Assembly: GCF_008973715.1 (NCBI RefSeq)
Contig: NZ_WBOL01000001.1
Coordinates: forward strand, 62,001 to 126,000
DNA length: 64,000 nt
Source of the DNA: Nitrincola schmidtii
Lineage (GTDB): Bacteria; Pseudomonadota; Gammaproteobacteria; Pseudomonadales; Balneatricaceae
Direction: 5' to 3'
The position numbers were made by a program, and so were the translations under genes. This document shows positions 47,281 to 55,964 of this stretch, piece by piece. How positions within the stretch are numbered: position 1 is the stretch's first letter; the number at the start of each line of letters is the position of its first letter. Under the pieces are notes generated by a model. It saw only the letters and a list, made by a program, of their open reading frames with translations. It was not told the DNA's origin and ran no database searches.

Positions 47281-47382
47281 GTTGATGTATTAATTGTCAT
47301 GCGACACGCTTTTCGTCGTCCTTGACCGCTCGCTGACGACATCCATGTCGTCAGACGGTCTCATGACAACTAACACACCAAC
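47281..47382 (+). repeat. Structured repeat, copy A1 (inverted-pair family)
   Basis: Outer arms 47281-47305 and 47358-47382 pair over 21 of 25 positions. Inside lie a small hairpin (GTC, loop GTCCTT, GAC) and a perfect hairpin CTGACGAC-ATCCAT-GTCGTCAG. The conserved core starts GACACGCTTTTCGTC and ends CAGACGGTCTCA, shared with copy A2 at 55644-55743. It lies in the 581-base gap (47117-47697) between the tRNA array and syd. No T-tract follows on either strand. Confidence 0.8.
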
Positions 47383-47530
47383 TCATATGAATTCATCACG
47401 TAATTCTTTTCAATTAGCAATCAAGCAAAAAAACTGTTTATCGTGATGGGATTAAATGATGAGATTTTCAGCATGATAAGTAACGATCGATTTGCTTAAA
47501 AATCTATCAGCCAATAGAGTACGTCAAAGA

Positions 47531-47647
47531 GATCGATGAGGTGGTCACTGTCTGACCCTCAGCGCCATGGATGGCGCTGTGGAGCCATCAGGGATGATTT
47601 ACGGCCTGTCAGGAACGGCGAGTCAGACAGTGATTACCTCATTGATC
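47531..47647 (-). repeat. Structured repeat, copy B1 (inverted-pair family)
   Basis: Outer arms 47531-47556 and 47622-47647 pair over 23 of 26 positions. The inner hairpin AGCGCC-ATGGAT-GGCGCT is the reverse complement type of that in copy A1, so B1 is the same family in opposite orientation. A 14-base near-duplication (ACGGC at 47601 and 47615) is unique to this copy. It lies about 150 bases from A1 and 50 bases before syd. Confidence 0.8.
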
Positions 47648-47697: not shown

Positions 47698-48264
47698 ATG
47701 AGCAAAGAGCCATCTGAAGTCCAATTAGCAATTAAGCAATTTATGCAAAAAGTGACAAACATGTGTGAGACACAAGGCTGGCCGCAGCTTCCTTATGACA
47801 AGGAGTGGCCGAGTCAATGTTGGCAGAATGAGGCAGATGAAGGGGTACTGACTTTGTGGAAACCGGTGCTTCAGACCGAATCGATCAATATGTTTGAGCG
47901 CCTAAGTCAGGCTTTAGAAACAGAGATACACCCTGATATCGCCGATTTTTACAGCGTCTATTGGTCAGATCCCCTCCCCGCTAAAGCACCTCAAGGAGAA
48001 CTTTCTTTACTGCAAGTATGGAACCCTGAGGATATCGAACGTCTAAGAGCTAACCTGATTGGGCATGCACTGGAAAAGAAACGACGTAAATTACCCTTAA
48101 CACTCTTCTTTGCAGTCACCTTGCCGGATGGTAATCTTATTATCAGCTTAGATAATGCAGATGGCAGCATTTGGCTTGAATCACCGGGTAAGCCGCCTCA
48201 TCAGCGCTTAGCTAACTCGTTGGCAGAATTTATTCATCAATTAGAACCTATTCCTTTCGAATAA
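47698..48264 (+). CDS. syd: SecY-interacting protein Syd
   Basis: Syd is a cytosolic protein that binds SecY at the inner membrane and is thought to monitor translocon quality. The 188 residues show the family pattern: WPSQCWQNE near 40, WKPVLQT, EIHPDIADFY, SLLQVWNPEDIERLRANLIGH (in parts: LLQVWNPED, then LRANLIGH) and a final LANSLAEFIHQLEP. It starts 50 bases after repeat B1 and is followed by the yajG-like gene after 11 bases, probably as one transcript. Confidence 0.93.
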   Translation: MSKEPSEVQLAIKQFMQKVTNMCETQGWPQLPYDKEWPSQCWQNEADEGVLTLWKPVLQTESINMFERLSQALETEIHPDIADFYSVYWSDPLPAKAPQGELSLLQVWNPEDIERLRANLIGHALEKKRRKLPLTLFFAVTLPDGNLIISLDNADGSIWLESPGKPPHQRLANSLAEFIHQLEPIPFE

Positions 48265-55643: not shown

Positions 55644-55743
55644 GAGCAGGTAGCACTGCTTTGAGACACGCTTTTCGTCATCCATGACCGCTCCCTGTCG
55701 CCATCCATGGCGACAGACGGTCTCAAATCAGCACTACCTGCTC
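55644..55743 (+). repeat. Structured repeat, copy A2 (inverted-pair family)
   Basis: Outer arms 55644-55667 and 55720-55743 pair over 21 of 24 positions. Inside are GTC-ATCCAT-GAC and CTGTCGCC-ATCCAT-GGCGACAG. The core matches copy A1 over about 60 bases, with paired changes in the second hairpin, while the outer arms are unrelated to those of A1. It begins 15 bases after the decarboxylase stop. Confidence 0.82.
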
Positions 55744-55874: not shown

Positions 55875-55964
55875 GGGTTGGGGATTGCATGACCCTCTGC
55901 GCCATGGATGGCGCAGTGGAGCCATCAGGGATAATTTCACGGCGTGTCATGCAATTCCAAACTC
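55875..55964 (-). repeat. Structured repeat, copy B2 (inverted-pair family)
   Basis: Outer arms 55875-55893 and 55946-55964 pair over 16 of 19 positions. The inner hairpin is TGCGCC-ATGGAT-GGCGCA. Core blocks TGGAGCCATCAGGGAT and ACGGC are shared with copy B1. It faces A2 in the 367-base gap (55630-55996) between the decarboxylase and the convergent DUF5610 gene; the 131 bases between A2 and B2 show no other feature. Confidence 0.8.

Follow-up and report, generated by a model that had tools for sequence, protein, structure and literature searches.

Self-complementary, locus-specific arms of AYGGAY-type double hairpins in Nitrincola and their probable link to an ISAs1-type element

Among described RNA motifs, TwoAYGGAY (Rfam RF01731) resembles the hairpins analysed here in having, on the same strand, two AYGGAY-loop hairpins enclosed by an outer stem, and has been predicted to bind CsrA (PMC4333381). 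Ysr224, a Yersinia sRNA (Rfam RF02770), shares with them a GCGCCAUCC(A/C)UGGCGC hairpin that is matched on the opposite strand. Among dispersed repeats, REP and the CGTC- and GTAG-tagged repeats are likewise intergenic palindromes, often arranged as inverted pairs near the 3′ ends of genes (PMC3733652). CGTC-tagged REPs measure 20–40 bp, with a stem of 8–9 bp that starts with A-T pairs and a CCA tail, and some REP families sit inside longer palindromes (PMC3733652). As to the upkeep of such structures, arm homogenisation and spacer inversion are described as two outcomes of polymerase template switching between inverted repeats (PMC8604942), a process that has also been argued to maintain RNA stems, with loop inversion reported alongside (PMC8794818).

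We compared these systems with the hairpins found in a 64-kb stretch of DNA from a Nitrincola species (45% GC), the whole of which is referred to here as the window. At the Rfam gathering score, only tRNAs were found in the window. RF01731 matched with 26.3, 21.4 and 23.9 bits, below its gathering score of 43 bits, which was reached in none of the 11 genus genomes (best score, 42.1), and RF02770 matched with 28.4 and 22 bits, its gathering score being 70. An assignment to CGTC-tagged REP was rejected because the stem of hairpin 1 starts with C/T-G-N rather than with A-T pairs. Mobilisation as a GTAG REP by Y1-RAYT was also rejected, given that no hairpin occurs at the 18 Y1 transposase loci of the genus.

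Hairpins in the window

The window contains four hairpins in two divergent pairs, hp1/hp2 and hp3/hp4, each consisting of one B-type and one A-type core (Table 1). hp1 is located between a tRNA-Asp/Val cluster and a gene that we take, from its protein, to be syd, and hp2 lies just upstream of that gene. The core that the preliminary description had recognised in all four hairpins was borne out: cores are 60–64 nt long and share 87–92% identity among copies of the same type. Each comprises two hairpins with near-invariant NGGA loops, enclosed by the outer stem. Covariation in a 34-sequence alignment backs four core helices, with 90.8% of cells paired and a score of 0.505; shuffles gave 0.116, and sliding the alignment gave no more than 0.085.

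Table 1. Positions of the hairpins and associated features in the window
Feature	Position	Strand	Remarks
hp1, B-type hairpin	47281..47382	− (core strand)	outer arms 47281-47305 / 47358-47382, 21/25 paired; orthologs in G006, G008
hp1 first AYGGAY-type hairpin loop	47337..47350	−	CGACATGGATGTCG
hp1/hp2 element interior	47383..47530		between two outward-pointing hairpins; no ORF; relatives' version shorter
Candidate promoter just before hp2			TTGCTT-17-TAGAGT; TTGCTA-17-TACAGT in G008; read by eye
hp2, A-type hairpin	47531..47647	+	outer arms 47531-47556 / 47622-47647, 23/26 paired
hp2 first AYGGAY-type hairpin loop	47563..47576	+	CGCCATGGATGGCG
hp3, B-type hairpin of second window element	55644..55743	−	arms 21/24 paired; orthologs in G006, G008, G009
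hp4, A-type hairpin of second window element	55875..55964	+	arms 16/19 paired; orthologs in G006, G008, G009

The outer arms, 19–26 bases long, are self-complementary in every window hairpin, and all four pairing counts given earlier were reproduced (Table 1). When arm alignments were scored with equal treatment of G.U and A.C, the 14 own-genome copies mostly reached 36–45, whereas shuffled arms scored 12.8 ± 4.6 (maximum 32.5) and arms taken from different copies scored 14.2; the score of hp2 was low only because the scoring did not bridge a short tandem duplication in its core, which is absent from the G009 ortholog. The self-complementarity of the outer arms is thus far beyond chance. The arms had also been said to differ completely between copies. 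They do differ, but the wording was slightly overstated: own-genome arms show a mean identity of 34%, against 27% for shuffled sequence, and those of hp2 and hp4 are 60% identical, so that traces of common ancestry remain.

Two local features accompany hp1 and hp2. An 18-nt stretch of the interior (47411-47428) matches the beginning of the syd coding region (47722-47739) at 17/18 positions. In the G008 ortholog of hp2 (L098, 576-610), the first inner hairpin has been deleted between short TCAG repeats, with both outer arms kept.

Copies, probable carrier and empty sites

A covariance model located 16 copies of the hairpins in the own genome, 41 in G010, 49 in G002 and 4–17 in other congeners, many of them forming divergent A-type/B-type pairs approximately 100–260 bp apart. 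With a later covariance model (E ≤ 1e-5), the family was present in 67 of 369 sampled Gammaproteobacteria genomes. Phages yielded no match to the consensus core. Plasmids yielded none with hp2 as the query; the consensus core did match plasmid pDCA (NZ_KU922118.1). There, a B-type hairpin on the minus strand (75.2 bits) and an A-type hairpin on the plus strand (65.7 bits) enclose an ISAs1-family transposase gene, encoding DDE_Tnp_1 and its associated domain. The element carries perfect 17-bp terminal repeats (17/17) and the 10-bp target duplication AGGTTGGGGT on both sides; target-site duplications of the ISAs1 family measure 8–10 bp.

Traces of this organisation recur in chromosomal copies. 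Locus L142 of G086, from a related genus, has the same terminal inverted repeats (TIRs) as pDCA (16/16 and 15/16) with A(−)/B(+) hairpins and no transposase, and is flanked on both sides by the 10-bp duplication GGGGGCAAGA. At L148, a TIR is present together with a flanking repeat matching at 9/10 bases. Overall, TIR matches of at least 13/16 lay 43–48 nt outside the core in 8 copies, compared with 0–1 in control windows, and the copies that retain a TIR keep the pDCA layout, with approximately 45 nt between hairpin and TIR.

The window pairs resemble the pDCA element in their outward-pointing B(−) and A(+) hairpins and in similar B arms, and differ from it in lacking a transposase and a recognisable TIR or target-site duplication at either pair. 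The absence of a transposase from the 148-bp interior of the hp1/hp2 locus is expected of a MITE, but is not proof of one. Judged by these sequence comparisons, the divergent pair corresponds in layout to an ISAs1-type element after gene loss, and homology of the hairpins and of their arrangement suggests that both pairs in the window are MITEs of this type in an eroded state. The hairpins were, however, absent from 10/10 other plasmid-borne ISAs1-family elements examined, and G169 and other genomes outside the family carry solitary hairpins without a TIR. The hairpin family is therefore wider, and ISAs1 is at most one carrier.

Other copies differ in what they contain or enclose. L076, L077 and L080 of G010 carry a nearly identical, hairpin-forming 48-nt insert (CCGAAAAATGCTCCTGCATTTTCGGCATTCCCGCCGTCCATGGCGG) in the loop of hairpin 1. 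At L082 (G010:C1:1001000-1002750), an A/B pair at 404 and 1292 encloses genes for a ParE-like toxin and a ParD-like antitoxin, and at L135 of G086 such a pair encloses a protein with a NOV_C domain. At L131 and L134 (G007:C43 and C11), hairpins of the same orientation lie between PIN-domain toxin-antitoxin genes, an arrangement that resembles a small cassette array.

Comparison with congeners bears on the origin of the arms. G001, G002 and G010 retain the order tRNA-Asp/Val–syd, and the intergenic region of each contains neither the hairpin nor a comparable palindrome; the hp3/hp4 site is empty in G001, G003, G005, G007 and G010, with a short intergenic gap compared with 367 bp here. As far as sequences this diverged can show, such sites indicate that the arms were not present beforehand. 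At the empty hp3/hp4 sites L269, L270, L273 and L274, from several species, the convergent genes are separated by a short, terminator-like hairpin that has no relation to the arms; no obvious hairpin of this kind occurs at the own-genome hp3/hp4 site, as if the element had replaced it. Two candidate losses in G006 were rejected: a precise excision of hp2, which is rather a deletion leaving a remnant of the right arm, and L173 as an empty site, which reflects a partial deletion.

The preliminary description had raised two origins for the locus-specific arms, the first being that the core inserted in the middle of locus-specific palindromes already present. Such insertion would account for own-genome arms that differ by locus while the cores are alike. 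It conflicts with the empty sites, where the palindrome expected at the syntenic tRNA-Asp/Val–syd region of the three congeners is missing. It also conflicts with the arms of G010, GGGCTGATGGGATCGGATTTG (A) and CGGGGTGGTGGTATCGCTTTGG (B), which are common to about a dozen pairs, B arms similar to these occurring also in G001, G007 and another genus (G086); sharing of this kind had itself been named as evidence against palindrome insertion. Furthermore, several copies in the unrelated genome G324 have the outer portion of the arm in common and vary in the inner portion, the reverse of what target-derived arms would show. We consider this origin very improbable. The accompanying premise, that a mobile element would carry identical arms everywhere, holds for recent copies and fails for old ones, which drift while staying self-complementary.

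Joint divergence of the arms and strand-biased wobble pairs

For the second origin, in which one arm is copied from the other, there is support from joint divergence of the arms, from the perfect arms of G324 and from inversion of the core at three loci. Joint divergence was examined at eight own loci, each with an ortholog in at least one of G006, G008 and G009; the group 'L168?' proved not to be orthologous and was excluded from later ortholog counts. As anticipated for arms under copying, the two arms of a hairpin had changed together, mostly by transversion-type double changes. Counted per position, compensated double changes between orthologs were found at 22 positions, and single changes to real mismatches at 24, the latter indicating that neither copying nor selection is complete. 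In a separate tally, compensated doubles between orthologs were of transversion type in 30 cases and of transition type in 9; transversion-type doubles have no path via a G.U step.

The ten copies of G324 have clearly different arms, and these form 276 Watson-Crick pairs, 4 G.U pairs and 0 mismatched pairs; of the changes that separate related copies within that genome, 43 are compensated and 2 are single. At L165, L166 and L172, the orientation of the core with respect to the flanking genes is reversed from one species to another. Joint arm changes and core inversion match both outcomes described for template switching, which we infer to be the probable copying process between the inverted-repeat arms.

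A second signal is the direction of the wobble pairs. Counted per position (20 positions per arm, the compared loci sharing a phylogeny), single changes away from a Watson-Crick pair at orthologous loci led to G.U in 23 cases and to A.C in 1. Within copies, the ratio of G.U to A.C on the GGA-bearing strand was 222:72 overall, 33:4 in the own genome and 76:26 among non-redundant arms, and the direction was alike in 13/13 informative own loci. The bias was weaker in genomes outside the family (G.U 32, A.C 14), and the mismatches of G169 showed little strand bias (G.U 9, A.C 5). If selection did not distinguish the strands, G.U and A.C would be expected in roughly equal numbers; the excess of G.U suggests selection for folding of the GGA-bearing strand, as RNA or as single-stranded DNA. 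hp3 and hp4 are also better conserved than the sequence between them, a difference that we did not take as proof of selection because template switching can cause such conservation too (PMC8604942).

Plain compensatory evolution of a functional RNA at each locus, in which a base and then its partner are fixed by selection and no arm is copied, would explain much of this second signal: the strong excess of G.U over A.C in the own genome and at orthologous positions, the covariation in the core, and the conservation of hp3 and hp4 above their spacer. Most double changes, however, have no G.U route; the related copies of G324 show almost no single changes; and the core inversion at three loci, which reverses the GGA strand with respect to the genes nearby, is left unexplained. 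We regard compensation as the sole process as unlikely.

The strand bias is equally compatible with folding of single-stranded DNA, the folded GGA strand then serving as a recombination substrate, as with integron attC sites or in Y1/HUH transposition. The position of the hairpins at the ends of the element and the toxin-antitoxin genes in some of the spans between hairpins fit this reading. Against it, the intact relative possesses a DDE transposase, TIRs and a 10-bp duplication and needs no single-stranded hairpin, the Y1 transposase loci of the genus lack such hairpins nearby, and the bias persists at fixed loci after insertion. This role for single-stranded DNA appears improbable, and more so than RNA compensation. 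Integron attC sites as such, considered on account of the toxin-antitoxin genes, were rejected on their description: attC sites have conserved outer and variable inner parts, a layout opposite to the present one, and the intact relative on pDCA is of DDE type.

We consider it likely that hp1 and hp2 are the ends of an old, gene-less ISAs1-derived element, that the arms belong to the element, and that their complementarity is restored by copying together with selection for folding. A MITE-like remnant of this kind would have entered the tRNA-Asp/Val–syd region in an ancestor of this Nitrincola clade, hp1 and hp2 being its subterminal B and A hairpins with cores pointing outward, and hp3/hp4 would represent a second such element. 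After insertion, the arms of each copy would mutate freely in sequence, while complementarity would be restored by two processes: template switching at replication, which would copy one arm from the other and sometimes invert the core, and selection for folding of the GGA-bearing strand, probably as RNA. Free mutation combined with restored pairing would leave arms that are locus-specific yet self-complementary.

Possible function and comparison with known systems

The orientation of the hairpins to neighbouring genes is mixed and flips between species, which makes a fixed cis role unlikely; a function as leader or terminator of one gene was rejected, because no one cis role can account for this. 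The AYGGAY loops, the weak same-strand match to RF01731 and the published suggestion for TwoAYGGAY (PMC4333381) make binding of CsrA/RsmA by the GGA hairpins a lead, and the folded GGA strand may act as an RNA that possibly binds these proteins. A broader proposal is that transposon-spread AYGGAY double hairpins in many Gammaproteobacteria are dispersed RNAs acting on CsrA/RsmA, their stems rewritten by arm copying and core inversion so that only the structure is inherited; we hold this to be speculative and rather doubtful.

The pattern is unusual and real, and is explained mainly by known processes, namely a MITE-like transposon remnant, arm copying and strand-specific folding. It provides natural, dispersed and easily sequenced long stems whose sequence turns over fully while complementarity is kept, and in which core inversion serves as an independent sign of template switching. 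Whether pairing in RNA stems is maintained by stepwise selection or by arm copying thereby becomes directly testable in bacteria. In addition, an orphan structured-RNA motif is tied to a probable carrier, an ISAs1-type transposon, suggesting that such small elements can seed strand-specific folded RNAs beside host genes.

Within the literature searched, neither the connection of this hairpin family with an ISAs1-type element nor the evidence from wobble pairs and inversion had been described. Unlike REP sequences, the hairpins described here are approximately 100 bp long, contain two inner hairpins and are linked to an unrelated transposase. With template-switch hairpins they share arm homogenisation, compensatory multi-base changes and inversion of the spacer or loop; those studies concerned yeast coding repeats, rRNA and microRNA with short loops (PMC8794818; PMC8604942), whereas here the spacer is approximately 60 nt long and belongs to a dispersed bacterial repeat.
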